From contig VGVQ01000018.1 of NCBI GenBank assembly GCA_016874005.1, positions 1-64,000 of the forward strand: DNA of 64,000 bases, given 5' to 3'. Of this stretch, positions 213 to 17,227 are shown piece by piece (the first letter of the stretch is position 1; every line of letters begins with the position of its first letter). Origin of the DNA: Gemmatimonadota bacterium. GTDB taxonomy: Bacteria; Gemmatimonadota; Gemmatimonadetes; Gemmatimonadales; GWC2-71-9. The notes under the pieces are model-generated. The model made no database searches and was not told the origin of the DNA. It worked only from the letters and a program-made list of their open reading frames with translations. Both the position numbers and the translations under genes were made by a program.

Positions 213-890
213 ATGGAGCCCGACCTACTATCTCGTCTAGCTACACTTGAGCGCTCCAATCGCCGGCTCAGGACATCAGTCGTTCTCATTGGGTTGGCCC
301 TGTCGCCCTTGGCGCTCCTTGCTCTTTACCGATCACCCAACCTCCAGCCTACGTCTCTTCAGGCCGCTGACTCTCTCCGCGTCCGGCAGCTCATTGTGGT
401 CGACACCATGGGTGTCGTCCGTGCCCGGCTAGGCGCCCATTTGCCAGATGCTGTCATTGATGGCAGACGGCTTCGCCGTGGCGAGGATATCGCAGGGATC
501 CTGCTTTATGACGACGGAGGGCGCGAGCGGGGTGGCTATGTCACGTTTTCGCCCTCTCGCAATGTCGCTCTGACGTTGGACACGCGCGAGCGCCAGGTAG
601 CTCTGTTCGCCGCAGACCCCGATGATGGAGTGGCGGCACGAGTGTGGGGCGGCACTAACTGGGTCGAAATGCGAGCTAGCACCAAAGGAGCTCATCTCAA
701 TCTCGGCCAATCGAACGAACTTGTCGTTCAGCAGCCTCCCCTCAGCGAGGCTGAGGTTGGCGCCTTTTGTTCCGGCCTCAAGGACGCCCTGCGTCGGATT
801 ACACCGCCGCCCCCACAGGAAAAGCTTTTAGCGGAGTGCAAACAACGTATGCCAGACGCTGCCTGTCGGAGATGCCTCAGTTCTCAATGA
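213..890 (+). CDS. membrane-anchored hypothetical protein, integron cassette cargo
   Basis: This 225-residue protein has no function that I recognise. A hydrophobic segment at about residues 22-41 suggests a single N-terminal membrane anchor with the rest outside the cytoplasm. After it comes a soluble domain that starts with a beta-strand-rich stretch (LRVRQLIVVD, residues 56-65). The C-terminal end holds four cysteines within about 35 residues (one near 187, three near 208-220). The start is set by a GGAGG six bases before the ATG. The gene fills the cassette between the core site at 161 and the attC at 908, the usual layout for a promoterless integron cassette. Codon use is less GC-biased than in the chromosomal genes further right, in line with transfer. 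Confidence 0.7.
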   Translation: MEPDLLSRLATLERSNRRLRTSVVLIGLALSPLALLALYRSPNLQPTSLQAADSLRVRQLIVVDTMGVVRARLGAHLPDAVIDGRRLRRGEDIAGILLYDDGGRERGGYVTFSPSRNVALTLDTRERQVALFAADPDDGVAARVWGGTNWVEMRASTKGAHLNLGQSNELVVQQPPLSEAEVGAFCSGLKDALRRITPPPPQEKLLAECKQRMPDAACRRCLSSQ

Positions 891-1046: not shown

Positions 1047-1391
1047 TCAGGCGGTTCGACCAGGGCACCAGATGAAACTCCGATTCGCAGCATCCAGCAT
1101 CAATAACCGGTACTTGAGGATCGCTTCAGCGCCACGAACCCATTCGAGCACTGGGCCTTGGAGCGAGATGGGCTCCGGGCACTCTGGCGACCGCTCCTCG
1201 AAACCCACGCCAGCGATGACTCGCTGGGCATCGGCGCGGGTGGCGGCGAATCTGGTTGGACTCGGGCCTCCGCCAAGCGAAGTCTGAGCACGCTCAATGA
1301 ATGGGGCCGAACGCTGCCGCGTTTCGGGCACCCCGGAGAGCGCGTGCTGGACCACCTCCATTGTACTCAGTGTGACAGGAAACTCAGGCAT
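1047..1391 (-). CDS. hypothetical protein coupled to an Xre-type regulator
   Basis: This 114-residue protein is not recognisable. It has no signal peptide or membrane segment. Its ATG lies inside the last codons of the regulator gene at 1384-1920 and the two overlap by eight bases, so translation is probably coupled. A longer open frame runs upstream to 1544, but that part overlaps the regulator, and the internal ATG at 1391 is the natural start. A DNA-binding gene followed by a small coupled gene next to an integron cassette suggests a toxin-antitoxin or accessory regulatory pair. No toxin motif is visible, so that remains a guess. Confidence 0.5.
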   Translation of the reverse strand: MPEFPVTLSTMEVVQHALSGVPETRQRSAPFIERAQTSLGGGPSPTRFAATRADAQRVIAGVGFEERSPECPEPISLQGPVLEWVRGAEAILKYRLLMLDAANRSFIWCPGRTA

Positions 1392-1920
1392 CGGGCGGCG
1401 GCCAGTCGAACGATGATAGATCCGGCACGGACGCCTGCGGGCCTGCGGTGAAGTAGGTTGGTGGCGAGGGACGGTGCTTGTCGCGATCGTCTTTCCGCAA
1501 TTCCAAAGTTCGCTCGAAGAAATGCATCTCGTGTCGCAGTACATGGATCGACGAGAACCCCAAGTCTTCCTTGACCGCTTCTACAGTCCGGCCTGGATCA
1601 CGGGCGGCGACGGCCTGGCAGAGGGCTTCAAAGAAGACTCGCGCTGCGTCGGCGAGCGGCTCGCTAATTGGCACATTGAACACCTCCATGAGCCCGCTCG
1701 ACGTGATGACATTCTTCTCAACAAGCCGGCTCAGCGTTTCAATGGTCGCCGCGCTCTTGCCGGACCGGTAGTCTGTGAGTAGACCGCGATCGACCCCCGA
1801 TCGACGGCTCTGACTCGTCACCGATTCCCCTGAACTCCTCAGCACCCTCGCAAGTCGCTGGGCAGCCGTAGCCCCGCGCCCCCGTTTCCGACCCTTCGAC
1901 TTCGCGTTGCTCCGTGTCAT
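1384..1920 (-). CDS. Xre/Cro-like HTH transcriptional regulator
   Basis: This 178-residue protein has a very basic N-terminus (residues 1-20, rich in Lys, Arg and Ser). A helix-turn-helix region follows at about 22-72, in which SQSRRSGVDRGLLTDYRSGK has the spacing of a Cro/C1-type recognition unit. The remainder is helical and ends in a Pro-rich tail. An in-frame extension upstream to 2055 exists, but the ATG at 1920 better fits a divergent arrangement with the AlpA-like gene at 2041, leaving 120 bp for two promoters. It probably controls itself, the coupled downstream gene and perhaps the element. The family assignment rests on the HTH pattern only. Confidence 0.6.
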   Translation of the reverse strand: MTRSNAKSKGRKRGRGATAAQRLARVLRSSGESVTSQSRRSGVDRGLLTDYRSGKSAATIETLSRLVEKNVITSSGLMEVFNVPISEPLADAARVFFEALCQAVAARDPGRTVEAVKEDLGFSSIHVLRHEMHFFERTLELRKDDRDKHRPSPPTYFTAGPQASVPDLSSFDWPPPDA

Positions 1921-2040
1921 CGTGCCCCCCTTAGCTGACCGATGGGGCAATGTCACCCCACCTGGGGCGAGTTTGCCGCCTTCCCCGAACAAGTCTAATA
2001 ACCTTTCGTTCCCTCTGGTCCTTCTCGGAGAAAACGGGGC

Positions 2041-2238
2041 ATGGCTACGAGGCAACTACTCAAGATCAGTGAAGTCGAGGAGATGACCGGCCTGCGCCGG
2101 GAAACGATCTGGCGCAAAGTTCGCGAGGGGAAGTTCCCGGGTGCGCTCCGACTTCCAGGCTCGAACGCGGTTCGCTTTCAGCGATCTGCGGTCGAGCGGT
2201 TCGTTGGCATTGCCGCTCACTCAGACGCCGCGGCTTAG
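2041..2238 (+). CDS. AlpA-family transcriptional regulator / excisionase-like protein
   Basis: This 65-residue protein is almost entirely a winged helix-turn-helix of the AlpA/MerR-like class. LLKISEVEEMTGLRRETIWR forms the HTH, followed by the typical wing (REGKFPGALRLPGSNAVRF) and a closing helix (AVERFV). AlpA proteins activate integrase or excision genes in prophages and in Gram-negative phage satellites. The gene lies just ahead of the primase-helicase. A purine-rich GGAGAAAA sequence precedes the ATG. As the first plus-strand gene of the replication module it is a likely switch for induction of the island. Confidence 0.82.
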   Translation: MATRQLLKISEVEEMTGLRRETIWRKVREGKFPGALRLPGSNAVRFQRSAVERFVGIAAHSDAAA

Positions 2239-2305
2239 CGACGGTGGCCTCGTTCCCGCTCTCCCCGACCCTCCGGCTCGCGGTTCAGCAGCTCGAGGTG
2301 TCGCA

Positions 2306-4141
2306 GTGACGGCGGCCGACCTGGCGATGCGCCTCCACGCCAAGCGGAACGGGCGGGGCTGGAGGGCCCAATGTCCAGCGCACAAGGACGACACGCCGTC
2401 GCTGACCATCGACGGGGGCGTGGATGGCCGGATTCTCGTTCATTGTCACGCCGGTTGCTCTCATGAAGCGATCCTGGCCGCCGTGGGCCTCCGATCGGGG
2501 GACCTCTTTCCCGCCTCAGCACCTCGCGCTGGTCGGCCAGAACTGTTGGCAACCTACGAATACCGGACGGCTGAGGGACAGCCCGCTTTTGAGGTGCGGA
2601 AGTTTCTCGACGTTGCATCGGGTGGTGGGCGAACGAAGACCTTCCGCCCGTTTCTGCCCGGCCGCGACCGACCCGGCCTCGACGGCCATCCGCTGGTCCT
2701 GTATCGACTTCCGGAGCTCCTGCAGCGCCCGGAGGGGGCGGTGGTTTTCGTGGTCGAGGGTGAGAAAGACGTCGATCGGTTGGTCGATCAGGGGCTCACT
2801 GCGACGACGAATCCTTTCGGGGCCGAGAAGTGGCGTCCGGAGTTCAGTGCCTGCCTTCGCGGCGCCGATGTCATCATCCTCCCCGACAACGATGACCCCG
2901 GCCGACGCCACGCGGACCAGGTCGCGCGGGCGCTATGGGGAACGGCGGCGCGGGTTCGGGTTGTGGAGCTGCCTGGCCTCGCCCCGAAGGGGGACGTCAG
3001 CGACTGGCTCGACGCGGGACACTCGATCGACGACCTCCAGAGGTTCGCAGACCTCGCGCCCGACTGGAACCCTGCTGCGGGTCCGGTCGTGTTGGCGGGT
3101 GGGCCGGAGAGCCATCCGGACGAGACAGCGCTACCGGATCCAGTCAGGTTGGCCGACGTGACTGCTACCCCGCTCGAGTTCGCCATCGACGGCCTGCTCG
3201 TGCAGCGCGAAGTGAATGCCATCGTCGGCGACGGTGGGTCGTTCAAATCGACGCTGCAGCTCGCGGCGGCGACCTTCGTGGCGGGTCATGCCCTCGCCTT
3301 CGACACCTTCGGGCTCACCCCTGGCCCGGTCCTGATCGTAAGCGGGGAGGACGGTCGCGACGTCATCAAGAACCGAATCGAGGCCATCGCACGCGGCCAT
3401 CGTCTCGACGTCGAGGCGGTGCTCGCCAACATGTACGTCTACGACGAAGGCCCCGACATCGACGACCCCCGTTGGCAGCTGCGGCTCGAGCAGGCCGCGA
3501 ACGACGTCCACGCAGTGCTCGCCTGCTTCGATCCCTTGGTCGACCTCTGCGGGCACGGGGTGGAGGAGAACAGCAACAGCGACGCCAAGCGCGTCACCCG
3601 TTGGCTCCGGCGCTTCATCCGAGAGACCGGGGCCACACCTTGGCTCTCGCACCACGTGACTAAGCCATCCGAAGGCCGCACCGATCGGAAACATCGGGTC
3701 CGGGGGGCCTCGGCCTGGAAAAACGCCACCCGGGCCTGTTGGTGGGCCGAGCCCTGCGACGGAGGCGTCGAGCTCGATCCGATCAAGGCCAATCGACTCG
3801 CCCGACCCGAGATACTCCGCCTCAAGACCACGATCGTCAGCGACGCCAACAAACCGCTGATGTGGAAATCGGCCCACTTCGGGATCGATCGCGACGGCGA
3901 GCTCGTGCACCGATCCGTGGTTGCCATTCTGAGGCACGTCGGAGCGGCCAAGGCCCCGCCGTCCCTTCGGGAAATAGAGGGCGCCTCGGACATTCACGGG
4001 CTCAGCCGTGACGCGGCTCGCGACGCCGTGGCGGTGGGCAAGGCCAAGGGCTGGCTCACGACGACACCCGGTCCGCGGCGGTCGCTCCTGCATTCGATCA
4101 CCGAGAGCGGGCGAGTCCGGTTGGTGCTCGGGAATGACTAG
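2306..4141 (+). CDS. fused primase (zinc finger-TOPRIM) and RepA-type replicative helicase
   Basis: This 611-residue protein would start and drive replication of the element. Near residue 25 a CHC2-like zinc-binding pattern is visible (CPAHKDDTPSL, then HCHAGCS). A TOPRIM-like domain follows at about 155-235 (VVFVVEGEKDVDRL, then ILPDNDDPG with acidic residues). The C-terminal half is a RecA-fold helicase with Walker A GDGGSFKST and a Walker B-like ACFDPLVDL. The start at GTG 2306 is chosen for an AGGTG five bases upstream. An in-frame extension to 2141 overlaps the alpA gene and looks non-coding. Directly downstream lies a cluster of short repeats that may be its origin. Confidence 0.85.
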   Translation: MTAADLAMRLHAKRNGRGWRAQCPAHKDDTPSLTIDGGVDGRILVHCHAGCSHEAILAAVGLRSGDLFPASAPRAGRPELLATYEYRTAEGQPAFEVRKFLDVASGGGRTKTFRPFLPGRDRPGLDGHPLVLYRLPELLQRPEGAVVFVVEGEKDVDRLVDQGLTATTNPFGAEKWRPEFSACLRGADVIILPDNDDPGRRHADQVARALWGTAARVRVVELPGLAPKGDVSDWLDAGHSIDDLQRFADLAPDWNPAAGPVVLAGGPESHPDETALPDPVRLADVTATPLEFAIDGLLVQREVNAIVGDGGSFKSTLQLAAATFVAGHALAFDTFGLTPGPVLIVSGEDGRDVIKNRIEAIARGHRLDVEAVLANMYVYDEGPDIDDPRWQLRLEQAANDVHAVLACFDPLVDLCGHGVEENSNSDAKRVTRWLRRFIRETGATPWLSHHVTKPSEGRTDRKHRVRGASAWKNATRACWWAEPCDGGVELDPIKANRLARPEILRLKTTIVSDANKPLMWKSAHFGIDRDGELVHRSVVAILRHVGAAKAPPSLREIEGASDIHGLSRDAARDAVAVGKAKGWLTTTPGPRRSLLHSITESGRVRLVLGND

Positions 4142-4150
4142 TCCTTTGGC

Positions 4151-4326
4151 AGTGCGCGAGTGCGCGGGTAGTGCGCGGGCGCTCACTGGCACTACCCGCA
4201 GCGCCCCTCAGAGCGCGCGAGTGCGCGGTTCTTATAACGGCCCGCGCACTCAATCGCCCCCGAATCCGGCCTCGGTTCTCGGTCGAGAACGCCGAAAACC
4301 AGCTCAGTGCGCGGGCCAGTGTGCGG
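4151..4326 (+). repeat. iteron-like repeat cluster, candidate replication origin
   Basis: The nonamer AGTGCGCGG recurs with at most one change at 4151, 4159, 4170, 4220, 4306 and 4318 in direct orientation, and once inverted at about 4241-4249. An A+T-rich patch (TTCTTATAA) lies between the copies at about 4229. Short repeats beside a TOPRIM primase-helicase gene are the usual layout of origins in plasmids and phage satellites. The function is inferred from this layout; the repeats themselves are directly visible. Confidence 0.6.
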
Positions 4327-4505
4327 TTCCAATCCGGAGGCCAGCCTTCCGAAACGGTCGGCGGAGGTGGGGCCATGAACCATCCCCGGACAGGCCAAAG
4401 GCCAACGGTGGCCCGTGGCCTAACGGCTCGGGGGTCCCCGCCCCCCCTGTTGGGTCCTTGCTGGGGAGCCGGGCCGGTCCGCGAAGCGGCGCATTCAGGT
4501 TCTAT

Positions 4506-4522
4506 ATACCCCCGTGGGGTAT
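4506..4522 (+). other. perfect 7-bp hairpin ahead of the terminase-like gene
   Basis: ATACCCC (4506-4512) is followed by a CGT loop and GGGGTAT (4516-4522). It lies 32 bases before the ATG of the terminase-like gene. It has no T tract. It could be a repressor site or an RNA hairpin that controls packaging-gene expression. No function can be assigned from sequence. Confidence 0.35.
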
Positions 4523-4554
4523 CGAGTTCTTCTTCGAGGGAGGCGGCCCCGATC

Positions 4555-5367
4555 ATGAATCGCCGAAAACTGACGCGGCATGACTTGGGCCGGGTCTGGA
4601 ACGTCTCGACCCGGACCCTTGCCGAGTACGAGAAGTTCGGCTTGCCCGTGGAGCGGGCCGGCCAACGGGTGGTCTACGACGCGGTGACGGCGGAGCGGTG
4701 GCTGGCGACCTTCCGGTGGCGGCGGTCGAGGACGCCCCGGAATCAGCGGGTGGGGTGGGTCCCGCCGATGACGGAACGGCAGCGAGCGGCGGTGGATGCT
4801 CGCGAGGCTCGTGAGCGGATGGCGGTTTCGGCTCGGTTCCACGAGGCCCAGCGGGAGCGGCTGGCTCGGCTAAGGGAGGAGTTGGCGCGCAACCGGGCTC
4901 TGCTCGAGGGCCTCGGCCTCCGGTCGGATGGGCAGCAGGACGCCCCCGTCACGCTTCGATCGTTGCCTCGGAGGGGTGGTGGATCGGGTACGCCGAGGCC
5001 TCTGGCGGCGCCAGGACCGGCGATCCCTCTGTCCGGTCGCTGTGGCAATGAGCCGAAAACCGTCAGTCGGGCGGGCGGCACGGCAGCGGAGGCCTCGCCG
5101 AGCCCTGACGTTGCCGTAGGAACGACGATCGGCGAGCGAGCCGATACCGGACCCGCTCCCACTCGCTGGATCGTCCGGGATCGGGCGGGGGATGTGTTAG
5201 GCCAGGTGGCGGCGACTCGGTGTGCCTGGGCCCGGTCGCTGGCGAGGAGGCGCTTTGGGCGAGGGGCGCGAACGGTCCAGCCGGCGGCCGAGGACGAGGC
5301 CCCGCCACGGTCGGCGGGATGCTCGGGCCCCGTCACTAGAGCTGCTGACCGTCAGCTAGGCCGCTGA
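4555..5367 (+). CDS. Nu1-like terminase small subunit / HTH protein
   Basis: In this 270-residue protein, residues 1-52 form a winged HTH that resembles lambda terminase small subunit Nu1: a helix-turn-helix ending in STRT, then GLPV, a basic wing with VVYD, and a closing helix with a Trp. A charged helical stretch (about residues 70-120, Arg/Glu/Ala-rich) could be a dimerising coiled coil, also as in Nu1. A Pro/Gly-rich linker leads to a small C-terminal domain around RWIVRDRAGDVLGQVAATR. The start at ATG 4555 follows GGGAGG by ten bases. In an island with integrase and primase, this gene would redirect a helper phage's packaging machinery. A plain HTH regulator is the main alternative. Confidence 0.55.
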   Translation: MNRRKLTRHDLGRVWNVSTRTLAEYEKFGLPVERAGQRVVYDAVTAERWLATFRWRRSRTPRNQRVGWVPPMTERQRAAVDAREARERMAVSARFHEAQRERLARLREELARNRALLEGLGLRSDGQQDAPVTLRSLPRRGGGSGTPRPLAAPGPAIPLSGRCGNEPKTVSRAGGTAAEASPSPDVAVGTTIGERADTGPAPTRWIVRDRAGDVLGQVAATRCAWARSLARRRFGRGARTVQPAAEDEAPPRSAGCSGPVTRAADRQLGR

Positions 5368-5405
5368 CTATGTCAGACGTCCACGGTCAAACAGGCCCCC
5401 GTGGC

Positions 5406-5625
5406 ATGAGCGAGAGCGGGAGCTCGGTTCGCTGGTTGGTGTTCGCCCTGGCGCCGGTTGGCGAGGTGGTGGCCGCCGACCGAACCGCGGCCTGGGGCGA
5501 AGCCCGCCGGAATCTTCCGGCTCCGGGTCGAGCGGGTCCAGTCGGTTGCGTCCGCCGCGGTCGCGGCCGAGGAGTCCGCGGCGATCGCTCGCACCAGGCG
5601 GCTCCGCGAGGACGATGACGAGTGA
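5406..5625 (+). pseudogene. small hypothetical gene with a frameshift
   Basis: Reading from ATG 5406 gives a segment (RWLVFALAPVGEVVAADRTA) that resembles the C-terminal domain of the preceding protein (RWIVRDRAGDVLGQVAATR). The good frame breaks near 5510. Moving by one base there continues as a plausible helical tail (FRLRVERVQSVASAAVAAEE) that ends at a TGA at 5623. The open continuation in the first frame is Arg/Gly/Pro-rich and looks spurious. The gene is thus a partial paralogue of its neighbour's C-terminus that is broken by a single-base indel, miscalled, or read by frameshifting. Confidence 0.5.
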
Positions 5626-5725
5626 GCCAGTTACCGGAGGCTAAGAACCCAGGCGTTCCGCTCGGCCTGAGTGCCGGCATGGGTCGAGATTTTCCACCAT
5701 GGAGAACTCGATCGGGTGAGCCGGT

Positions 5726-5959
5726 TTACCGGCGTGGGTATCGGTCGGTCTCCTGCTGGTCAAGCCGAGCGTCTACGATCACGCCGAGCAGCTCGCGCAA
5801 CGTGGCGCCGGCATCCCGCGCTCGGATGATCACCCCGGTCTCGGTCGCGGTCAGGTCGGGGTGGTACATCTCCAGCGCGCCGGCGATCTCCTGATGCGGG
5901 ACAGCATCGAGCACGGTGTCGAGGTTGGCGATGTGGGCGGTGATGTTCTTGGCGGTCAT
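5726..5959 (-). CDS. small hypothetical protein of the island
   Basis: This 77-residue soluble protein is predicted to be mostly helical and is acidic in the middle; I do not recognise its family. It lies three bases downstream of the two-HTH repressor gene on the same strand, so the two are probably co-transcribed. It might be a partner or anti-repressor of that regulator, but nothing in the sequence shows this. Confidence 0.5.
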   Translation of the reverse strand: MTAKNITAHIANLDTVLDAVPHQEIAGALEMYHPDLTATETGVIIRARDAGATLRELLGVIVDARLDQQETDRYPRR

Positions 5960-5962
5960 CGG

Positions 5963-6466
5963 TCAGCCTCCGCCGCGCCGCAGGTCGCCCGGGGTAACAC
6001 CGAGGGCGACGGCCAACTTGGCCAACTTGGCGATGTCCCTCGGCGTGACTCGGGCGGCGCTTGTGGAGGCGAGGCGGCTAACCGTCCGTGGGTTGAGGCC
6101 GGCCCGCTGGAGCAACTCGGCAAACGTGATGTCCCGCTGGCGACAAAGCGACCAGAGCCGGTCGCTGCTGACCCAGGGCCCCTGTGCGATGGGGGCCGCG
6201 GATTCTATCTGGACCCGAGCAACATCGCCGGCGGCGTCGGCCGGTTTCACGGTCGGGTCCCGGGCCTCGATGAGGTCGCCCGGCGCCACCTGCAACACCG
6301 CGGCGAGCTTGTCGAGGGTCACGAGGGACACTTGCGTGGTCGCATTGGTGCACAGGCGGTTCACTGTGGCCATGCTAAGGCCAGAGCGGCGGGCCAGCTC
6401 GCTTTGGCTCAGGCCGCGCCGCCCGACAACCTCGCGGAGGCAGAACCGAGTAGGCATCGGCTCCAC
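5963..6466 (-). CDS. repressor with two Xre-type HTH domains
   Basis: This 167-residue protein carries two Cro/C1-type HTH units. The first (about residues 8-65) contains LSQSELARRSGLSMATVNRL and ends PGDL. The second (about 100-160) contains ITFAELLQRAGLNPRTVSRL and also ends in a PGDL motif. A linker of about 35 residues joins them, and no peptidase or ligand domain is present. A tandem repressor would bind paired sites within one chain. The gene is divergent from the integrase, and the 101-bp gap holds two near-identical 12-mers that are good operator candidates. It is probably the maintenance repressor of the island. ATG codons at 6466 and 6457 are both possible starts. Confidence 0.75.
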   Translation of the reverse strand: MEPMPTRFCLREVVGRRGLSQSELARRSGLSMATVNRLCTNATTQVSLVTLDKLAAVLQVAPGDLIEARDPTVKPADAAGDVARVQIESAAPIAQGPWVSSDRLWSLCRQRDITFAELLQRAGLNPRTVSRLASTSAARVTPRDIAKLAKLAVALGVTPGDLRRGGG

Positions 6467-6476
6467 AATAGCCTAC

Positions 6477-6517
6477 GCACATGTGCCTTGACAAGGCTTC
6501 GCAGATGTGCCTAAGAT
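6477..6517 (+). promoter_or_regulatory. integrase promoter with paired operator-like repeats
   Basis: GCACATGTGCCT (6477-6488) and GCAGATGTGCCT (6501-6512) are direct repeats 24 bp apart, and the first contains a perfect palindrome (GCACATGTGC). Between and across them lie TTGACA at 6488-6493 and TAAGAT at 6512-6517, 18 bp apart, a good sigma-70 promoter that reads toward the integrase. A protein bound at both repeats would block it. The divergent two-HTH repressor is the obvious candidate. Confidence 0.65.
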
Positions 6518-6567
6518 GCTTCCCGACGCACCCCACAACCGTTTGACGGGATAGGAGGCCGCCCCCC

Positions 6568-7848
6568 ATGGCACGACAGGACCGCCGCGGCAGCATCGAA
6601 CCCCGAGGGCCGGACCGCTGGCGGGTTCGGGTCTCGCTCGGCCGCGACCTCATCACCGGGAAGTGGATTCGCACCAGCCGGCTCATCGAGGGCACCAAAC
6701 GGGACGCCGAGCGGGCGCTCACCGTGGCCCTGCAGCAGCAGGACCGCGGACCCGTGGTCCCCCGGGCGCGGCTCACGCTCGGCGCCTGGCTCGACGAGTA
6801 CGCCAAGACCTGGAGCGGCCACCTTTCCGGCCGGACCCGCGAGGCAGCCGGCATGATCCTCCCGCGGTATCTGCCCCCGGCCCTCTTGGAGGCGCCCCTT
6901 GGCCGACTCACCGCCCGGGCGTTCCAGGACCTCTACAACCATCTCGCCGGGCGGGAGACTCCGCTCGCGCCCAGCACCATCAACTACCTGCATCGGGTGC
7001 TCCGCGTCCGACTCAACAAGGCGGTCGTGCTCGGGTACCTCGGGCAGAATCCACTTGCCGCGGTCCGGGCCCCGATCGCTCGGCATCGGGAGTATCGGGT
7101 CTTCTCGCCCGAGGAAGCACGGCTCTTCCTGGCCGAGGCCGAGGGCGATCGGTTCGGGGCGCTGTGGATTCTCCTGCTCCTGACCGGGATCCGACCCGAG
7201 GAAGCGCTCGGCCTGAAGTGGGAAGACCTCGACGGCGCCAAGATCCGGGTCCGTCGGGCCTTGGTGCGCCTCGCCAAAGGGCGATGGGATCTCACCGCGA
7301 CCAAGACCCGCCGGGAGCGCTCGGTGACCCTGCCCGGCCCCGTCGTGCGGGCCCTGCAACGCCACAAGGCGAAGCAAGCGGAGCTTCGCTTGCTTCTCGG
7401 GACCGACTACGCCGATCACGGGCTGGTGTTTGCGGCGACCTTCGGCCAGCCGCTCCGGTGGGAGACGATTACGAAGCGCCACTTCTGGCCGGTGGTCGAA
7501 CGGCTCGCCTTCCGCCTCCAAGGACGGGCCCCGGTGACGGTCACCCGGAAGGGGCTCAAGCCCTCGCAGCTCGCCCCGGCCTTCAAGGCTGCCCAGGAAG
7601 CCGCCACGGCGGCCCTGGCCAAGACTGGCCTGGATCGGCTCCGGCCCTACGACCTCAGGCATTCGGCCGCTACCCTGCTCTTGGCCGCCGGGGAGCATCC
7701 GAAGGTGGTCGCCGAGCGGCTGGGGCACGTCCGGGTGACCTTGACGCTCGACACCTACAGCCACGTCTTGCCTGGCCTCGAGGAGCGGGCGGCCGAGCGA
7801 CTGGAAACCGTCATCTTCGGAGCCCCGGCGCAGCGGGTTGGGATCTGA
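6568..7848 (+). CDS. int: tyrosine recombinase, island integrase
   Basis: This 426-residue site-specific recombinase has an N-terminal SAM-like domain of Arg-rich type (about 1-165), then the catalytic domain. The catalytic residues are visible: Arg in LLTGIRPEEALGLKW, Lys in TKTRRERSV, the DLRHSAAT box, the LGH box, and nucleophile Tyr in LDTYSHVL. About 45 extra residues sit between the Lys region and the DLRH box, which is longer than usual. It would integrate and excise the island at the adjacent tRNA-Arg gene, whose 3' end is 109 bp downstream. It is driven by the promoter at 6488-6517 and followed by a strong terminator. Confidence 0.92.
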   Translation: MARQDRRGSIEPRGPDRWRVRVSLGRDLITGKWIRTSRLIEGTKRDAERALTVALQQQDRGPVVPRARLTLGAWLDEYAKTWSGHLSGRTREAAGMILPRYLPPALLEAPLGRLTARAFQDLYNHLAGRETPLAPSTINYLHRVLRVRLNKAVVLGYLGQNPLAAVRAPIARHREYRVFSPEEARLFLAEAEGDRFGALWILLLLTGIRPEEALGLKWEDLDGAKIRVRRALVRLAKGRWDLTATKTRRERSVTLPGPVVRALQRHKAKQAELRLLLGTDYADHGLVFAATFGQPLRWETITKRHFWPVVERLAFRLQGRAPVTVTRKGLKPSQLAPAFKAAQEAATAALAKTGLDRLRPYDLRHSAATLLLAAGEHPKVVAERLGHVRVTLTLDTYSHVLPGLEERAAERLETVIFGAPAQRVGI

Positions 7849-7858
7849 TCCCGGCGCC

Positions 7859-7880
7859 GATTGCCCCCGGATTGCCCCCG
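7859..7880 (+). repeat. tandem 11-bp repeat near the island end
   Basis: GATTGCCCCCG occurs twice head to tail between the integrase stop codon and the terminator, close to the tRNA-Arg attachment target. It could be an arm-type integrase binding site. This is inference from position only. Confidence 0.35.
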
Positions 7881-7900
7881 AAGGGCCGGAGAGTCACGAA

Positions 7901-7930
7901 GGGCCCCCGAGTCCCGGGGGCCCTTTCTTC
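7901..7930 (+). terminator. rho-independent terminator after the integrase
   Basis: GGGCCCCCG (7901-7909) pairs perfectly with CGGGGGCCC (7915-7923) across a five-base loop, followed by TTTCTTC. It ends plus-strand transcription from the integrase and keeps it out of the convergent tRNA-Arg gene. Confidence 0.85.
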
Positions 7931-7956
7931 TGATCGCATAATGGGTTAGGGAGAGG

Positions 7957-8030
7957 CGCGCCCGGCAGGAATCGAACCTGCGACCCACAGCTTAGAAGGC
8001 TGTTGCTCTATCCAACTGAGCTACGGGCGC
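7957..8030 (-). tRNA. tRNA-Arg (anticodon TCT)
   Basis: The cloverleaf is complete on the minus strand: a seven-base acceptor GCGCCCG (8030-8024) pairs with 7958-7964, the D-loop region reads AGCTCAGTTGG, the anticodon TCT is at 7996-7994, and the T-arm contains GGTTCGATTCC. CCA is not encoded. Its 3' end faces the integrative element and is the probable attachment site. Confidence 0.96.
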
Positions 8031-8095
8031 GTGAGCTGCAATCTCCACTGCTCCCGGTGGCTGAGTCAAACCCAGGCCCTTCGGGGGAAAGATCG

Positions 8096-8908
8096 ATGTA
8101 CATGAATGCCTGGCTTCCGAGTCGAACTCCGGCCGCCGTGGCGATCCGCGGGGCGGGATCCGCACTGTTCGCGGCTACGCTCGCGTCGCTCCTTGGCCTT
8201 GATGATCTGATCGGAGCCGGCGGCCTGGGCTGGTTCCCACCGGTCTTGGCCGTCGGAGCTGTTGCGGGGTTGATCGGGGTAGCAGGGGCGCTGACCGCCC
8301 TAGCTGGGACGCTCGCCGCCTTGGCCCTGCTTGTGGCCACGGTGCCTTCGATCAGCCGGGCGGCGGACGGGTACATCCGGTCCGATTCTGTGCCAGGATC
8401 GGTCGACGCTGTTCTGGTACTCTCGGCGTCCGTCTCGCCCGACGGCCGTCTTGGCCCGGCGGCCGTCGACCGGCTTCTCGAAGGTGCCACCCTCACCAAA
8501 CGTGGGGCCAGTCGTAACTTGGTTGTCTCCCGAGTCTGGGCCGGGGGTGAACCATGGCCGGTGAGTTCGGATCGCGATCAAAAGGAGCTGATTGCCGCGA
8601 TCGACCCAACCGCGACGATCACGATCCTCGATTCGGTCGGATCGACGCGGCTGGAGGCGGAACGACTGGCGGCGGTAGCGCAACGGACGGGCTGGAGGCG
8701 GGTCGTGGTGGTGACATCACCCATTCACTCATCTCGGGCCTGCGCGACGGTCGAGAAAGTCGGCTTCGAGGTGTTCTGCCATCCGAGCCCCGACCGCACC
8801 GCGGCCGTTCGCACCCAACGCCGGGCTAGTGATCGGTTCCGGGTGTTCGGGCAGGGGCTCTACGAATGGGCGGGCTGGCGGAAGTATCGCTGGATGGGGT
8901 GGCTGTAG
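8096..8908 (+). CDS. YdcF/ElyC-like DUF218 membrane protein
   Basis: This 270-residue protein has two or three hydrophobic segments in residues 15-90 followed by a DUF218-type domain. That domain contains a Rossmann-like strand DAVLVLSASV near 105, RLEGAT-like and GGEPWPVSS stretches, and later STRLEAERLAAVAQRTGW then VVVVTSPIHSSRA. Family members include ElyC and SanA, membrane proteins linked to envelope and peptidoglycan homeostasis. The start at ATG 8096 has a GGGGGAAAG five bases upstream. The hydrophobic N-terminus is longer than in YdcF and resembles ElyC. It stands alone between the tRNA and the M55 peptidase gene. Confidence 0.75.
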   Translation: MYMNAWLPSRTPAAVAIRGAGSALFAATLASLLGLDDLIGAGGLGWFPPVLAVGAVAGLIGVAGALTALAGTLAALALLVATVPSISRAADGYIRSDSVPGSVDAVLVLSASVSPDGRLGPAAVDRLLEGATLTKRGASRNLVVSRVWAGGEPWPVSSDRDQKELIAAIDPTATITILDSVGSTRLEAERLAAVAQRTGWRRVVVVTSPIHSSRACATVEKVGFEVFCHPSPDRTAAVRTQRRASDRFRVFGQGLYEWAGWRKYRWMGWL

Positions 8909-8970
8909 ATCCTGGCGCGCCGGGGTAGCAGGAGCGATGTTGTCGAAGTCCCCTTCCCCGAGCACCACCG

Positions 8971-10095
8971 ATGACTCGCTCGACCTCCTTCGGACTCTGC
9001 GCCGCGTTGCTGGTGACGGTGGGCTGCGGCACCGGCGGCGGGCCCGGATCGACGTCGGCGCGAGGCAGCGTCGGCACGGGAACCCCCCGGGCCGCGAGCG
9101 GTGACGGCCCTCGGGTGTTGGTCTATCACGACATGGAGGGCCTCGCCGGCCAGAACGACCCCACCACCTATCGCTTCAGTCACCGCGATCGCTACCGCGT
9201 CGGACAGGAGATGCTGATCGCCGATCTCAATGCCGTGATCGGCGGCCTGTTCGACGGTGGGGCCAAGGTCGTGCACGTGGTCGATGCCCACGGCAGCGGC
9301 AACACCGATCCTGACGTGGTGACCGCCAAACTGGACCCGCGGGCCAGTCAGGTCATCCGGGACAGTGCCTTCATGCCGTACGTCGGGATCGTCGAGCCGG
9401 GCATCTACGACGCCATCGTCGCGGTCGGGATGCACGCCAAGACCGGGAGCCGCGGCTTCGCGTCCCACACCTACACGTTAGGCATCGACCTGCAGGTCGC
9501 CGGGACCTCGATCACCGAATCCGAGCTGGTCGGCTATTCCTGGGGGCGGGTTGGCGTTCCGGTCATCATGGTCACCGGGGACGACCGGCTCGCGGCTGAC
9601 CTCGCCACCATGCCATGGATCGAGTTCGTCGTCACCAAACGGGCGACCGCCGCCGATTCCGCCGAGCTCCGCCCGACCGCGGAGGTACACGCCGAGATGG
9701 CGGCGGCGGCCAAACGGGCCCTCGGCAAGCTCGCCGAAGCGAAGACCCTCACCTTCGTCGGGCCGGTGACGGTTGGACTCCGGGCGGTCCCCCCGGCGAG
9801 CCTGGCATTCCTGGAAGGGGTCCCCGGGATCCGATATCGCGACAACACGGTCGAGTTCGAGGCGGCTGACTTCGGTGCTGCGTTTGCCGGATGGGAGGCC
9901 CTGATCGGGACCGCTCGGCAAGCCTACGGGCAGGTTCTGACCGAGATGATCCGAGGCCGGCCGGACGGCCCCGCCCTGCTCGGCGAATACTCCGATCGGC
10001 TGTTTCAGCGCTGGATGGACGTCGAATCGGGCCGTTGGGTTCCGCCCGAGCGACCGGCCCCGGTGCCGGGCAAGCGCTACCACGGCGCCAACTAG
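8971..10095 (+). CDS. M55 family D-aminopeptidase-like lipoprotein (DppA-like)
   Basis: This 374-residue protein has a signal peptide with a lipobox (LVTVGC) near residue 20 and a Gly/Ser/Thr-rich linker, so it is exported and lipid-anchored. The rest matches the M55 zinc aminopeptidase family: YHDMEGLAG (about 52), VVDAHGSGN (about 109), the GMHAKTG stretch, SHTYT, and VTGDDRLAADL. These carry the Asp, Glu and His residues that hold two zinc ions in DppA, which removes N-terminal D-amino acids from peptides. A periplasmic role in recovering D-amino-acid peptides from cell-wall turnover is likely. Its location differs from DppA, which is cytoplasmic in Bacillus. Confidence 0.85.
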   Translation: MTRSTSFGLCAALLVTVGCGTGGGPGSTSARGSVGTGTPRAASGDGPRVLVYHDMEGLAGQNDPTTYRFSHRDRYRVGQEMLIADLNAVIGGLFDGGAKVVHVVDAHGSGNTDPDVVTAKLDPRASQVIRDSAFMPYVGIVEPGIYDAIVAVGMHAKTGSRGFASHTYTLGIDLQVAGTSITESELVGYSWGRVGVPVIMVTGDDRLAADLATMPWIEFVVTKRATAADSAELRPTAEVHAEMAAAAKRALGKLAEAKTLTFVGPVTVGLRAVPPASLAFLEGVPGIRYRDNTVEFEAADFGAAFAGWEALIGTARQAYGQVLTEMIRGRPDGPALLGEYSDRLFQRWMDVESGRWVPPERPAPVPGKRYHGAN

Positions 10096-10159
10096 CCAGA
10101 GGCGCGGCGGCGACGTCCGGGGGTGCTGCGGGGTTTCCTTCGAGTGATCGACCGCGACA

Positions 10160-10233
10160 TCGGGGCGCCGGGATTTGAACCCGGGACCTCCTGCGCCCAA
10201 GGCAGGCGCGCTACCGGGCTGCGCTACGCCCCG
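10160..10233 (-). tRNA. tRNA-Pro (anticodon TGG)
   Basis: The acceptor stem CGGGGCG (10233-10227) pairs with 10161-10167. Anticodon TGG is at 10199-10197 and the T-arm contains GGTTCAAATCC. CCA is not encoded. The extra G-C-rich D stem and loop are typical of tRNA-Pro. Confidence 0.96.
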
Positions 10234-10279
10234 TCAACCGGCGCCCGAATATAACCGCGGCTCGAGCGCGCTCCCACGG

Positions 10280-10897
10280 TCACCGTCGAGCCGCCCGGGG
10301 TGTCTGGATCCCGAGCCTCGAGGCCAAATAGCCGCTGACGATCGCCCATTGGCGCTCGGCGTGATACACCTTGGGCCGAAGCACGTGACTCAAGCCAATC
10401 CCATCCGACAGCGCCACCAGTCCGTCGGCCTCCTGGCGAGCGTCGAGACGCGAATCCACCAAGCCCGCGGCCTGGAGCGACCGAATCTCCGCCTCGAAGC
10501 GGCTATTGAGGAGCTCGAGCCGCTTCTGGTGCTCCTCCCGCAGCCGCCGGTCGCTCATCGCCAATCCGACGAACGACAGCCACAGCCGCCATCCCGACGC
10601 CTGTCGTTGCCCGTGCGGAAGGGTGGCCCGAAGAATCGCCCGGAGCCGGTCGGTTCCTCTGGCCTGGGCCAGGGCGAGATCCATGTCACGAAGAATCGCG
10701 GCGCCGAGGCGGTCGAGAGCGAACAGCAACAGCTCCGCCTTGTCGCGGAAATGGTAGGTGACGACTCCGGTCGTGGCCCCCAGCTCGGCGGCGATCGCCC
10801 GAATGCTGGCCTGGTGGAGGCCGTCTCGGAGGATCACCCGCCAGGCCGCCTCGGCGACCTGTGCCTTCGTCAGACTGCGGCCAGCGACACGTGCCAT
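10280..10897 (-). CDS. TetR/AcrR family regulator (BetI-like)
   Basis: This 205-residue repressor has an HTH at about residues 10-55 (IRAIAAELGATTGVVTYHF, with the YHF-DK signature of TetR proteins) and a helical ligand-binding C-terminal domain resembling BetI. The ATG at 10897 is preferred to a TTG at 10921 because the TTG start would read through a palindrome that looks like the operator. It is divergent from the beta-lactamase-like gene at 11143. Ligand and targets cannot be read from the sequence. Confidence 0.85.
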   Translation of the reverse strand: MARVAGRSLTKAQVAEAAWRVILRDGLHQASIRAIAAELGATTGVVTYHFRDKAELLLFALDRLGAAILRDMDLALAQARGTDRLRAILRATLPHGQRQASGWRLWLSFVGLAMSDRRLREEHQKRLELLNSRFEAEIRSLQAAGLVDSRLDARQEADGLVALSDGIGLSHVLRPKVYHAERQWAIVSGYLASRLGIQTPRAARR

Positions 10898-10916
10898 CGG
10901 GGTTCTCGCGGCAGAA

Positions 10917-10929
10917 AACAACGCTTGTT
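10917..10929. promoter_or_regulatory. candidate TetR operator
   Basis: AACAA-CGC-TTGTT is a perfect inverted repeat with a three-base centre, 19 bases upstream of the TetR-family start. It is followed by an A+T-rich TATATT. Position and symmetry suggest autoregulation. Confidence 0.5.
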
Positions 10930-11142
10930 ATATTCGTCACACGATCGGATCGACCAGGCGTCCGTCGCCAGGCGCGATCCAAGGTACGACCGGGCGGCCG
11001 GCGTTCACCAGGGTGCCCCGCCCAACGGCCGACTGGGAGCCGCGCCAGCCGCTCGCCAACGGTCCCGAGTCATCGCCTTGCCGGCGTTGGTGCGGTCCGA
11101 TCATCCCGATTTCGCGATCTCGTTTCTCGAGGGGTGGCAGCC

Positions 11143-12588
11143 ATGATCCGGGTCCGTGGGCATTTCCCCTGGTATCTCATCAGCTTGGCCCTCGGCTGCT
11201 CGGGCGCGCGGGAGCGGCCGGCCGAGCTCGATCCGGGCGTCCTGGCACGGGTCGATTCCGCGGTCGGGGACGCGCTGGCCAAGCGCGAGATCCCGGGGGC
11301 GGCCCTGGTTCTGGTCCAGGATGACCGGGTGGTCTATGCCAAGGGCTTCGGCCGAGCCTCCCTCGAAGAGGGGATCGCCGTGACCGACAGCACCCCGTTC
11401 GTGATCGGCTCGACCTCGAAACCACTCACGGCGCTCGGGGTGCTGCGGCTGGTTCAGTTGGGTCGAGTCGCGCTCGACACGCCAATCGCGCGGTACACAC
11501 CGGAACTGGTGTGGTCGGACCCGCGGGCCGCGGCCATCACCCTCCGGCACCTACTGACCAACCGGGCCGGCCTGGTCGTGGGGCACTCAGGGGACTCCTA
11601 CCGGCGACCGGCGATCGTCGACGACTCCGCGCTGGGCCGCCTGGCCCGACGGGCGGCCGCGATGCCGCTCCCGTTCGCGCCCGGTACCGACTACGCCTAC
11701 TCCAACCGGGGATGGGCCCTGGCTGGTTACCTCATCGAGCGGGTGGCTGGACGACCGGTCGAGGAGTTCATGCGCGAGGAGGTCCTGATCCCCCTCGGAA
11801 TGACCCAGTCCACCCTGGCCTTCTGGGAGGTCCCCAACATCGCCCAGGGGTACGTCGAGGGTCGGGAGGTCCGCAATCACCCTCAGAATGCCTCGCTGAC
11901 CCGGGAGTATGGCCCGGCCGGGATGTTCGTATCGACGCCCCGCGACATGGGGCGGCTCCTGGTCGCGCTGCTGAACCGCGGGCGCACCCACGACGGCGGC
12001 CAGTTCCTCACCCCCGCGCTGGTCGACGAGGCGCTTCGGCCGCAAGCCGCCGCCGCCAGCGAGTTGGGTGGCCCGACCCGCTATTCATTGGGCTGGGAAG
12101 TCGACTCGATGCTCGGAACGACCACCATCCGGAAGGCGGGCTCGGTCCACACCCTGGTGTCGCTCTGGGTGTTGTTGCCCGAGCGGCGGCAGGCCATGGC
12201 CTTCGCGTTCAACCGCGAGGACTATCAGGTGCTGCCGCTGGTTGCGAACGTCGCCTCGATTCTCGCGGGCGGGCGGGCCCAGCCGCTGGCGGCCTGGACC
12301 CCGCCGCCAGAGACTCCGGCGCCGGCCGAGGCCACCCTTCCGCCAGGCGCCACGACCCGCTGGCTGGGCCGCTACGACACCAGGACCGGAGACGCGGTGG
12401 TATCGCTTCGGGAGTCGGCCCTGACGATCGTCATCGACGGTGGGAGCGCCCGACTGGTGCCGACCAGCGACTCGACCGCGGCTGCGGTGAGCGACCTCGT
12501 CAGCGACGCCGGCAAGGTCTACAGCTTCCGTCGGAACGGTACCCTCTGGGTGGGCAGCGACTCCCTCGGGATTCGGATCGCCCACTGA
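11143..12588 (+). CDS. serine beta-lactamase-like hydrolase, lipoprotein
   Basis: This 481-residue protein belongs to the class C beta-lactamase / penicillin-binding family (Beta-lactamase Pfam family). A lipobox LALGC sits near residue 19. The catalytic Ser-x-x-Lys is STSK (about residue 91), the Tyr-x-Asn motif is YSN near 186, and a KAG triad-like stretch at about 331 may stand for the third motif. Beyond about residue 400 a separate beta-rich domain follows, as is common in this family. Members include esterases, D-aminopeptidases and peptidoglycan hydrolases, so substrate and any antibiotic resistance cannot be inferred. The start at ATG 11143 has GAGGGG upstream. Confidence 0.85.
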   Translation: MIRVRGHFPWYLISLALGCSGARERPAELDPGVLARVDSAVGDALAKREIPGAALVLVQDDRVVYAKGFGRASLEEGIAVTDSTPFVIGSTSKPLTALGVLRLVQLGRVALDTPIARYTPELVWSDPRAAAITLRHLLTNRAGLVVGHSGDSYRRPAIVDDSALGRLARRAAAMPLPFAPGTDYAYSNRGWALAGYLIERVAGRPVEEFMREEVLIPLGMTQSTLAFWEVPNIAQGYVEGREVRNHPQNASLTREYGPAGMFVSTPRDMGRLLVALLNRGRTHDGGQFLTPALVDEALRPQAAAASELGGPTRYSLGWEVDSMLGTTTIRKAGSVHTLVSLWVLLPERRQAMAFAFNREDYQVLPLVANVASILAGGRAQPLAAWTPPPETPAPAEATLPPGATTRWLGRYDTRTGDAVVSLRESALTIVIDGGSARLVPTSDSTAAAVSDLVSDAGKVYSFRRNGTLWVGSDSLGIRIAH

Positions 12589-12601
12589 GCCCGACCTGAC
12601 G

Positions 12602-12620
12602 GGGCGGCGGGGTGCCGCCC
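12602..12620. terminator. GC hairpin between convergent genes
   Basis: GGGCGGC (12602-12608) pairs with GCCGCCC (12614-12620) over a five-base loop, between the convergent hydrolase and aldolase genes. There is no T tract, so the termination efficiency is uncertain. Confidence 0.5.
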
Positions 12621-12628
12621 GACAGTGG

Positions 12629-13405
12629 TCAGCCGCGGATCTGAGCGATCGCCTCCTGGCCGGCTTTCTGGAGAAGGCCCATTTCCGAGGAGATGCTGAC
12701 CAGGCGCATTCCGCGCCGGGCCCACTCCCCGGTGAGGGCGACGTCGTTGGTGTGAATGGCGGGGTACTTGCCCGCGGCCTGGCAGGCCGCGACCGTCCGC
12801 TCGATGGCCGCCTCGAGGATGGGGTCGCGGGAACGGCCCGCGACGCCGAGGGCGATACTCAGGTCGTTCGGCCCGATCAGCGCGGCGTCGACCCCGGGCA
12901 CCGCGACGATCTGTTCCACCGCGTCGACCGCTTCCTTGGTCTCGATCTGGACCACCACCATCGTCTCGCGATTGGAGTCCGCCATCATCGCGGTCACGTC
13001 GCCGCTCTTGAACTCGGTGTGCCCCCTGCCCGTGGCGCTTCCCCTTGCCCCGACCGGGGGATACTTGACCGCCGCCACGGCGGCCCGCACCTGGTCCACC
13101 GAGGTGACCCGGGGTAGCATGACACCTTGAGCCCCGCCGTCGAGCGCCTGAGTGATGAATTCATACGACAGAGCCGGCACCCTGACGATCGGCGTGACAC
13201 CGACCCACCGCCCGGCCCGGCCCAGCTCGGCGATGGTTTCGTTCGAGAAGACGCCGTGTTCGTTGTCGATGATCGCCCAGTCGAAGCCGGCGTTGCGGAG
13301 CGCCTGCATGATCGACGGCTGGCGGACTTCGGCGATCATGGTGCCGACCGCCAGCCGGCCTTCGGCCAGGCGCTGGCGGAGCATGTTGGGAGGAATGATG
13401 GACAC
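12629..13405 (-). CDS. HpcH/HpaI family aldolase
   Basis: This 258-residue class II pyruvate aldolase cleaves 2-keto-3-deoxy acids such as 4-hydroxy-2-oxoheptanedioate or 2-keto-3-deoxyrhamnonate. Visible motifs are DNEHGVFSNE (general base His), RVPA (substrate Arg), QIETKEAV (metal-binding Glu) and GPNDLSIALG (metal-binding Asp). Two starts are possible: GTG 13405, which gives a short N-terminal tail, and ATG 13384. It is the last gene of the minus-strand run that begins with the thioesterase and lies 11 bases after rdgB. The exact substrate cannot be told. Confidence 0.85.
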   Translation of the reverse strand: MSIIPPNMLRQRLAEGRLAVGTMIAEVRQPSIMQALRNAGFDWAIIDNEHGVFSNETIAELGRAGRWVGVTPIVRVPALSYEFITQALDGGAQGVMLPRVTSVDQVRAAVAAVKYPPVGARGSATGRGHTEFKSGDVTAMMADSNRETMVVVQIETKEAVDAVEQIVAVPGVDAALIGPNDLSIALGVAGRSRDPILEAAIERTVAACQAAGKYPAIHTNDVALTGEWARRGMRLVSISSEMGLLQKAGQEAIAQIRG

Positions 13406-13416
13406 GGGTCTCGGAC

Positions 13417-14040
13417 TCAGGTGAGTGGATGGACGTGAAGCGCCTCGAGCAGCGCCCGGACTGCCCGGCCCCGGTGACTGACACCGTCTTTCTCGACGTC
13501 GGTGGCGTCGCCGAAAGTCTTCTCGAGGTCGTCGCTGCGAAAGTAGGGATCGTACCCGAAGCCGCCCGCGCCCGACGGCTCGAGTTGAATCAGGCCGCTG
13601 CAGCTGGCGTCGAAAGTCTCCGGCACGGCGCTGGGCCTCCGGAGCAATACCAGGACGCACCGGTACCGGGCCCGCCGGCGCGCCTCGGCGGCACCGGCGA
13701 GACGGCGGACCAAGAGGGCATTGTTCGCCTGGTCCACGGTTGCCGCGCTGCCCGCGACTTGAGCCCACCGCTTGGATCGCACCCCTGGTTCTCCGCCAAG
13801 GCTGAACACTTCGAGGCCGCTATCGTCGGCGACGGTGGGCAGCCCAGTGCGGCGGCAGAAGTACTCGGCCTTGGCGCGGGCGTTGGCCTGAAAGCTGTCG
13901 TGGAGCTCGAGAGCGTCCTCCGCGGTCGACTCGGCGACGCCCGCGTCGTCGGGGAAGACCAGATCGAAGCCCGTCTCACCGATCAGCCGGCGGAACTCCC
14001 GCTGCTTCCCGGCGCTTCGGGTCGCGACCAAGAGCTTCAC
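13417..14040 (-). CDS. rdgB: XTP/dITP diphosphatase (Ham1/RdgB)
   Basis: This 207-residue house-cleaning pyrophosphatase hydrolyses XTP, ITP and dITP and so prevents their incorporation. The family signatures are all present: the N-terminal ATRSAGKQREF, VADDSGLEV, GYDPYF and SHRGRA. The start overlaps the last four bases of rph (ATGA type), the classic rph-rdgB coupling seen in many bacteria. Confidence 0.95.
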   Translation of the reverse strand: MKLLVATRSAGKQREFRRLIGETGFDLVFPDDAGVAESTAEDALELHDSFQANARAKAEYFCRRTGLPTVADDSGLEVFSLGGEPGVRSKRWAQVAGSAATVDQANNALLVRRLAGAAEARRRARYRCVLVLLRRPSAVPETFDASCSGLIQLEPSGAGGFGYDPYFRSDDLEKTFGDATDVEKDGVSHRGRAVRALLEALHVHPLT

Positions 14041-14747
14041 CAGCCGAGCGCCTGCCGCTGGGCGTCGAACAGGGCCCGAATGCCTCGCTCGCCGTAGTCG
14101 AGCATCTGGAGGAACTGGGCTCGGCTGAAAACGCCATTTTCACCGGTGCCCTGCAACTCGACCAGGTCGCCCGGCGAGCGCATCACGAAGTTGGCGTCGA
14201 CCCCGGCGTCGCGATCCTCGACATAGGCCAGATCGAGGAGCACCTCATCGCCGAGGACGCCGACACTCACCGCGGCGACGAGCTGGCCGAACGGCGTGGC
14301 CTGGCCTGTCTTGGCCGCGAGGTAGGCACAGGCATCCGCGAGCGCGACGCAGCCGCCGGTAATGCTGGCGGTGCGGGTTCCGCCGTCGGCCTGGAGCACG
14401 TCGCAATCGATCTTGATGGTATGCTCGCCGAAGTCCCAGCGACCCATCGCGGCCCGGAGCGAACGGCCGATCAGCCGCTGGATTTCCTGGCTCCGGCCCC
14501 CGGGGCCATTGCGCTCCCGGTTGGTCCGCTCGACCGTGGCCCGCGGCAGCATGGCGTATTCGGCGGTGACCCAGCCGAGGCCGGTTCCCTTCTTGAAAGG
14601 CGGCACGCCGACCTCGACCGAGGCGGTGCAATGCACCAGGGTCCCGCCGAACCGGACCAGGCAAGAGCCCTCGGCGTAGGGATTGGCATTGCGTTCCAAC
14701 ACCACGGGGCGCAGTTGGTCCGGCGCCCGACCGTCAGCGCGTGCCAC
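14037..14747 (-). CDS. rph: ribonuclease PH
   Basis: This 236-residue phosphorolytic 3' exoribonuclease trims tRNA 3' ends. That is relevant here because the tRNA genes in the window mostly lack encoded CCA. Diagnostic features are the N-terminal RADGRAPDQLRPV, the GGTRTASITGG segment that binds phosphate, and DLAYVEDRDAGVDANFV. Length is normal. It overlaps the end of the rfaE2-like gene by 14 bases. Confidence 0.96.
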   Translation of the reverse strand: MARADGRAPDQLRPVVLERNANPYAEGSCLVRFGGTLVHCTASVEVGVPPFKKGTGLGWVTAEYAMLPRATVERTNRERNGPGGRSQEIQRLIGRSLRAAMGRWDFGEHTIKIDCDVLQADGGTRTASITGGCVALADACAYLAAKTGQATPFGQLVAAVSVGVLGDEVLLDLAYVEDRDAGVDANFVMRSPGDLVELQGTGENGVFSRAQFLQMLDYGERGIRALFDAQRQALGW

Positions 14748-15225: not shown

Positions 15226-15226
15226 T

Positions 15227-17205: not shown

Positions 17206-17227
17206 CGCCTCCCTTATCTTCGCGCCC

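Follow-up and report, generated by a model that had tools for sequence, protein, structure and literature searches.

Gram-negative phage-inducible chromosomal islands (PICIs) are recognised by a unique attachment (att) site never used by prophages, the lack of structural and lysis genes and a size of about 12-15 kb, together with an integrase, a replication module and a master regulator in a conserved organisation (PMC6092414). Their common origin layout places iterons on either side of an AT-rich stretch that lies 3' of the replication gene (PMC6092414), and all the Gram-negative PICIs of one study were found in Gammaproteobacteria (PMC6092414). The Rpp proteins of E. coli PICIs have the winged helix-turn-helix (HTH) and long helix of the terminase small subunit (TerS) type, with no domain binding the large subunit (TerL) (PMC9026076, PMC6739421); in lambda TerS, it is the C-terminus that binds TerL (PMC9026076). 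The DNA analysed here, called the window, is the first 64 kb of contig C18 (VGVQ01000018.1; 87,099 bases) of a Gemmatimonadota draft genome, G000 (49 contigs, 97% complete), and it begins inside an island integrated in a tRNA-Arg(TCT) gene. With a probability of about 0.52, this island is phage-derived and of satellite (PICI-like) build, possibly decaying. An open-access literature search found no paper on satellites in Gemmatimonadota, in agreement with the original prediction, to which no described family was known there. Its suggestion of an undescribed system was too strong, since elements of such build are widespread in other phyla; islands of this build are already known as a kind.

Genes were called from an open reading frame (ORF) list, Pfam-type domain matches and PHROG families, tRNAs were located by ARAGORN and Rfam, and the comparison set within the phylum comprised 395 genomes (handles G for genomes and L for loci). 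The core of the island consists of the following features:

2041-2238, plus strand: AlpA-family regulator/excisionase (E 8e-9).
2306-4141, plus strand: primase-helicase with CHC2 zinc finger, Toprim and AAA_25 domains (AAA_25 E 1e-27; PHROG primase families E 1e-35 to 1e-37).
4151-4314: iteron array and putative replication origin, six exact AGTGCGCG copies 3' of the primase-helicase gene.
4555-4914, plus strand: likely lambda-Nu1-type TerS-like DNA-binding domain with a long helix (PDB, Foldseek, shuffle z, codon signature).
5963-6466, minus strand: repressor with two Cro/CI-type HTH domains (HTH_26, two stretches), divergent from int.
6568-7848, plus strand: tyrosine integrase (Phage_integrase E 9e-17; PHROG_1 E 3e-63), its 3' end about 100 bp from the att core.

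The integrase, the divergent two-HTH repressor, AlpA and the primase-helicase all lie where the original prediction had placed them, as judged from domain and PHROG matches. The integrase, replication module and master regulator of the conserved PICI organisation (PMC6092414) are therefore represented, AlpA and the primase being present. In common with PICIs of the EcCICFT073 type, the island has an integrase, AlpA, a primase(-helicase), a repeat-bearing origin 3' of the replication gene and a TerS-fold protein downstream, shows no tail or lysis genes in its assembled part and, with at least 12.1 kb, may belong to the 12-15 kb class (PMC6092414; EcCICFT073 gene list). It differs from them in its phylum, in two further HTH regulators, in an integrase gene placed at the tRNA end and reading toward the tRNA, and in that no capsid genes were seen, while packaging by a helper is only proposed. 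As helper dependence is no more than a prediction, filing the element as a PICI is not justified; that it works like one is plausible.

The integration of the island could be followed at both of its ends, with these features on the window side:

7955-8030, minus strand: tRNA-Arg(TCT), the integration site (ARAGORN, Rfam), intact after integration.
7953-7999: 47-bp att core of the right junction, which starts in the anticodon loop of tRNA-Arg and runs slightly beyond its 3' end.
7859-7882, plus strand: arm-type repeat, GATTGCCC twice with an 11-bp step.
1-127: contig-end repeat, matching the C11 end exactly and the C11 start over 99 bp; an assembly break, with the interior missing leftward.

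The left junction is an exact copy of the 47-bp core on contig C33 (12226-12272), where a complete tRNA is absent. The arm pair GATTGCCC-N3-GATTGCCC stands at 7859/7870 in the window and at 12401/12412 on C33, in island DNA on either side of the core, and the C33 copy was the best match outside itself in a whole-genome search with the int-tail sequence. These paired repeats about the core look like the two arms of one attP after integration. Beyond the island, the C33 flank, left of the core copy, carries homogentisate dioxygenase (HGD), HPPD, a MATE transporter and an SGNH hydrolase, the first three named from sequence resemblance, and the C18 flank, right of the core, carries a DUF218/YdcF gene, a D-aminopeptidase-like gene and tRNA-Pro. 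An uninterrupted tRNA-Arg(TCT) stands within a few kb of HGD-HPPD-MATE in G002, G004 and G006 (of MATE alone in G005), and a YdcF-type gene follows the tRNA-Arg in G001, G002, G003, G005 and G006, with two extra genes between them in G002. The empty site whose search had been proposed is thus present in G001-G006, as an uninterrupted tRNA-Arg with the flanking genes of the island in whole or in part. The marks of a tRNA island are all found, namely the 3' part of the tRNA directly repeated at the two ends, an integrase beside the tRNA and relatives with an empty site, and the island has integrated site-specifically in tRNA-Arg(TCT), mechanism and site being demonstrated by the junctions. In this step, which the two junctions record, the integrase recombines the 47-bp tRNA 3' half (attP x attB), the element bringing a new 3' half and the old one being left at the far end. 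That the C33 copy of the tRNA half should be unrelated to the island, as an artefact of assembly or binning, is highly improbable: the bin is indeed a 49-contig draft with breaks on both sides of the gap, but the 47-bp repeat is exact, arm repeats lie on either side of the core, and the C33 and C18 flanks are syntenic across tRNA-Arg in several relatives.

Because both junctions are mapped, the size of the island is at least 12.1 kb, with 4,151 bases on C33 and 7,952 on C18 plus the unassembled interior. The limits first given, 1384-7957, were too small, since the left end is on C33 and 1-1384 is also island DNA. C33 ends in a repeat common to C3, C18 begins in one common to both ends of C11, and the repeat contigs that would close the gap are absent from the bin (the small contigs C34-C49 were tried). 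On C33, the island includes IS21-type remnants, an amidohydrolase and part of a radical-SAM-like gene.

The SGNH hydrolase was also tried as a guide to the empty site and gave none, being elsewhere in most relatives; it was the tRNA-Arg itself that located the site. Upstream of this hydrolase in L016 (G004) there is a C-terminal integrase fragment very like the integrase of the island, without a tRNA nearby, which is the trace of an older related element.

Regarding replication, the ORF of the primase-helicase opens at 2141, GTG 2306 being the likelier start. All six exact AGTGCGCG copies of the window, on both strands, fall within 164 bp just past the primase stop, against a mean of 0.03 and a maximum of 1 in order-1 simulations of the region, which bears out the iteron-like repeats of the original prediction. 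The copies surround TTCTTATAAC, where AT richness is modest, giving the arrangement of iterons about an AT-rich stretch 3' of the replication gene, and by analogy with the PICI layout (PMC6092414) the array may serve as an origin. An integrase, an excisionase, a primase-helicase and an origin would suffice for an excisable replicon, and in one similar element from Chloroflexi, enclosed by duplicated tRNA-Arg genes, no TerS is seen. The island could accordingly be conceived as a small integrative element independent of phages, self-excising and self-replicating, which would spread through natural transformation or be mobilised by genes situated in the gap. This is quite unlikely, as the TerS-type protein would then have no obvious use and the assembled 12.1 kb showed no recognisable relaxase or transfer gene.

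Few strong relatives of the primase were found in the 395 genomes of the phylum, and one named Gemmatimonadetes contig stands among its distant relatives. The GTDB relatives (n=80) are spread over many phyla, and an integrase lies near the primase in 51 of them, with a tRNA gene on the stretch in 28 of these 51. TerL, portal or capsid genes were detected near the primase in 6/80 GTDB relatives and 18/62 IMG/VR relatives, counts which are lower bounds, since the late-gene seeds were few; 49 of the 80 GTDB relatives have an integrase but, within 10 kb, no TerL, portal or capsid gene that could be detected. Because most primase relatives sit in islands of such build, the satellite reading is put slightly ahead of the one that comes closest to it, a prophage remnant, in which a temperate phage integrated in tRNA-Arg would have suffered a deletion of the latter half of terS and of everything up to and including the late genes. 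The early module, the repressor and the integrase would have been left, with insertion sequence (IS) elements and integron cassettes coming later. We hold such a remnant to be a less probable but substantial alternative. As most primase relatives are in integrase islands without detected late genes, a small size need not mean deletion, and neither the assembled island nor the small contigs gave any remnant when searched with the late-gene seeds.

The TerS question concerns the 4555 protein, whose ORF (270 codons) stays open to 5367 with a tail that looks non-coding. Family matches were weak (Nu1 Pfam PF07471 at E 0.06, and PHROG_57 at E 4e-4 with the full ORF), and residues 1-124 gave nothing against PHROG_57 at E 0.01. 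Among 177,635 PDB sequences, the four best matches to residues 1-124 were all lambda-type TerS (E 0.02-0.08), the full ORF matching lambda-type TerS at E 0.07-0.3. A single-sequence AlphaFold2 model had a mean predicted local distance difference test (pLDDT) score of 65, low in the HTH and high in most of helix 74-120, and its best Foldseek match was a TerS (probability 0.87, the next being 0.16 or lower), with an E value that was not significant. The shuffle z was 9.4 against a Gemmatimonadota TerS encoded beside a GpA-type TerL (G392) and 6.9 against lambda TerS, compared with 4.6 for one excisionase-like protein and -1.3 to 0.5 for the AlpA proteins tested; as a yardstick, RppA and lambda TerS, accepted relatives in fold, reach 6.4 by the same measure. 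Taken together, sequence and model make a Nu1-type DNA-binding domain with a long helix likely, the succession of winged HTH and long helix being that of lambda-type TerS, though the library matches are weak. The Nu1-like TerS of the original prediction is therefore upheld in part: the likeness is weak but real over about residues 1-110 of the 270, whereas the remainder has no codon signature and the TerL-binding part is missing. In this cut-down build, a winged HTH and a long helix with the TerL-binding part absent, the protein is like Rpp; it is unlike Rpp in showing no sequence similarity to RppA (z 0.5, RppA being the EcCICFT073 protein picked by its 144-residue length and position) and in an ORF tail of about 145 codons without codon signature.

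Several matches to the 4555 protein within the phylum (e.g. L143, L148, L157) were discarded, as they involve the Arg/Glu-rich helix only, and that in L143 lies on the strand opposite a glycosyltransferase gene. A perfect 7-bp inverted repeat, ATACCCC-CGT-GGGGTAT (window 4506-4523), precedes the start codon of the 4555 gene by about 32 bp. This 17-bp palindrome was not used as a cos-like site, because the window holds 49 such inverted repeats, and it may be chance or an operator.

A number of observations weigh against a satellite. The codon-position composition of the 4555 ORF is gene-like only to about residue 115, after which neither similarity nor codon signature was found, and the TerL-binding C-terminus is absent; moreover, the ORF runs on without a stop where the coding signature ends, which speaks for decay or fusion. 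GTDB contigs, IMG/VR and phage records yielded no relative of the protein, TerL family searches of the bin turned up neither a helper prophage nor a convincing TerL, and the interior between the C33 end and the C18 start is unassembled. In addition, the closest integrase relative (56%, G305) is in a prophage-like element, which carries AlpA, a replication initiator, TerS, a capsid protease, neck and tape-measure genes and a related repressor. Next to the 4555 gene lies one further feature:

4920-5720: stretch without coding signature in six frames, at the place behind TerS that TerL and the late genes take up in related phages.

No terL was found directly downstream of 4555, and the TerL and late-gene seeds gave nothing credible in 4900-5960 (best E 0.09, a 17-residue capsid match). 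Across the genome, the only TerL family match was a marginal one (PHROG_2, E 1e-3, on C9), with none to GpA, so that no hidden late operon was found in the bin and the search for a helper prophage, suggested with the original prediction, was unsuccessful there. With terS broken, the remnant reading stays close. The truncation of the TerS-like gene is at the place expected of a late-operon deletion, and 800 bp without coding signature follow it. Rhizobium phage RHph_Y3_1 has the order int-regulator-primase/helicase-TerS-TerL-late genes, and in G305 the closest integrase and the related repressor follow TerS, protease and tail genes. The island is like both in the order of its modules, and like the G305 element in its integrase (56%), repressor and AlpA; these two carry TerL or capsid protease and tail genes, whereas the assembled part of the island does not. 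The PICI gene set of the original prediction stands as a constellation in tRNA-Arg, free of structural genes in the 12.1 kb assembled, where domain and PHROG scans and late-gene seeds revealed neither structural nor lysis genes, but its satellite nature is not established, given the TerS-like protein without TerL-binding part, the prophage-like kin of the integrase, the missing helper and the gap.

Islands of comparable build were found in other genomes. That of G095 (L104 5684-14160, 8.5 kb) contains an integrase, an AlpA-like gene, a TerS of PHROG_1482 (E 2e-18), a primase and an endonuclease, ends at tRNA-Pro and is a cleaner satellite candidate than the island studied here. In G343 (L100 6329-13150), tRNA-Ser is accompanied by an integrase, a primase, a TerS of PHROG_51 and TerL, neither capsid nor tail genes being recognised as far as 13.5 kb, and a Nitrospira genome holds an island of the same build with a clear TerS gene. 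All three resemble the tRNA-Arg island in having a tRNA site, an integrase, a primase relative and a TerS with no capsid or tail genes seen, while those of G095 and G343 differ from it in their TerS families (PHROG_1482 and PHROG_51) and tRNA sites, and that of G343 also in its TerL. Compact elements with an integrase and a replication-type gene were also noticed beside tRNA-Gly in L331 (G244, 4632-18391) and L329 (G346, 5637-18925), where the only phage structural gene recognised by eye encodes a tape-measure-like protein, and L331 has an AlpA-like gene; these are possibly an unusual type of satellite.

The control region and the smaller genes of the island complete its description:

6479-6517, plus strand: putative int promoter, TTGACA-N18-TAAGAT, proposed from the sequence.
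5726-5959, minus strand: small gene, 77 aa, behind the repressor, of coding-like composition.
1384-1920, minus strand: second HTH regulator, divergent from alpA (HTH_3 only E 0.016).
1047-1391, minus strand: gene directly behind HTH gene 1384 (ORF).
213-890, plus strand: protein of 225 aa, probable integron gene cassette, no significant family match.

Two ASATGTGCCT repeats, 24 bp apart and the only copies in the window, overlie the putative int promoter and are putative operators. The ORF of HTH gene 1384 runs from 2055, and ATG 1920 fits the codon signature. From these elements, we infer the roles of the island genes in replication, switching and packaging. The two-HTH repressor would hold int off through the paired sites over its promoter, and alpA would be kept silent by HTH gene 1384. 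AlpA would set off both excision and expression, and replication of the circle by the primase-helicase would start at the iteron origin. The Nu1-type protein may direct, or may once have directed, a helper terminase to island DNA; without the TerL-binding part, it could act only by pairing with a helper TerS, as Rpp does in enterobacterial PICIs, or else it may be a broken TerS. It is an unlikely extension of the satellite reading that a Gemmatimonadota satellite lineage has evolved, independently of enterobacterial Rpp, a TerS-derived DNA-binding domain with a long helix which pairs with the helper TerS and redirects packaging.

The ORF at 213-890 is bounded on one side by a GTTAGGC core site (about 155-161) and on the other by an attC-like site (about 905-1031; GCCTAAC ... 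GTTAGGC) with a hairpin of about -86 kcal/mol by RNA parameters, and from its sequence it is probably an integron gene cassette inside the tRNA island. As the genome has a likely integron integrase (C14:46746-47444, L336; TIGR02249, positions 2-234 of 315, 254 bits, just under the 265 cut-off), the cassette may come from a resident integron. A scan for defence genes returned HTH and Toprim cross-matches only. Among RNA families, none but the tRNA came up to its Rfam gathering score. Elsewhere in the window, a tRNA-SeC gene is found at 18437-18534 on the minus strand. Common repeats of about 100-400 bp or more also end other contigs of the genome (C38, C39, C45; C34/C42; C35/C41; C37/C43), a pattern typical of draft assemblies in which repeats have collapsed.

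The satellites described to date belong to a small number of host groups. In this context, an island with mapped ends and TerS-bearing islands in two other genomes of the phylum suggest that such phage parasitism reaches little-studied bacteria. The element may have travelled in the particles of another phage, or it may be the leftover of a broken one; if a remnant, it would show a step by which a prophage is cut to a satellite-like core. The island also lends itself to a clean assay of the empty site and supplies a protein that is a candidate for packaging specificity.

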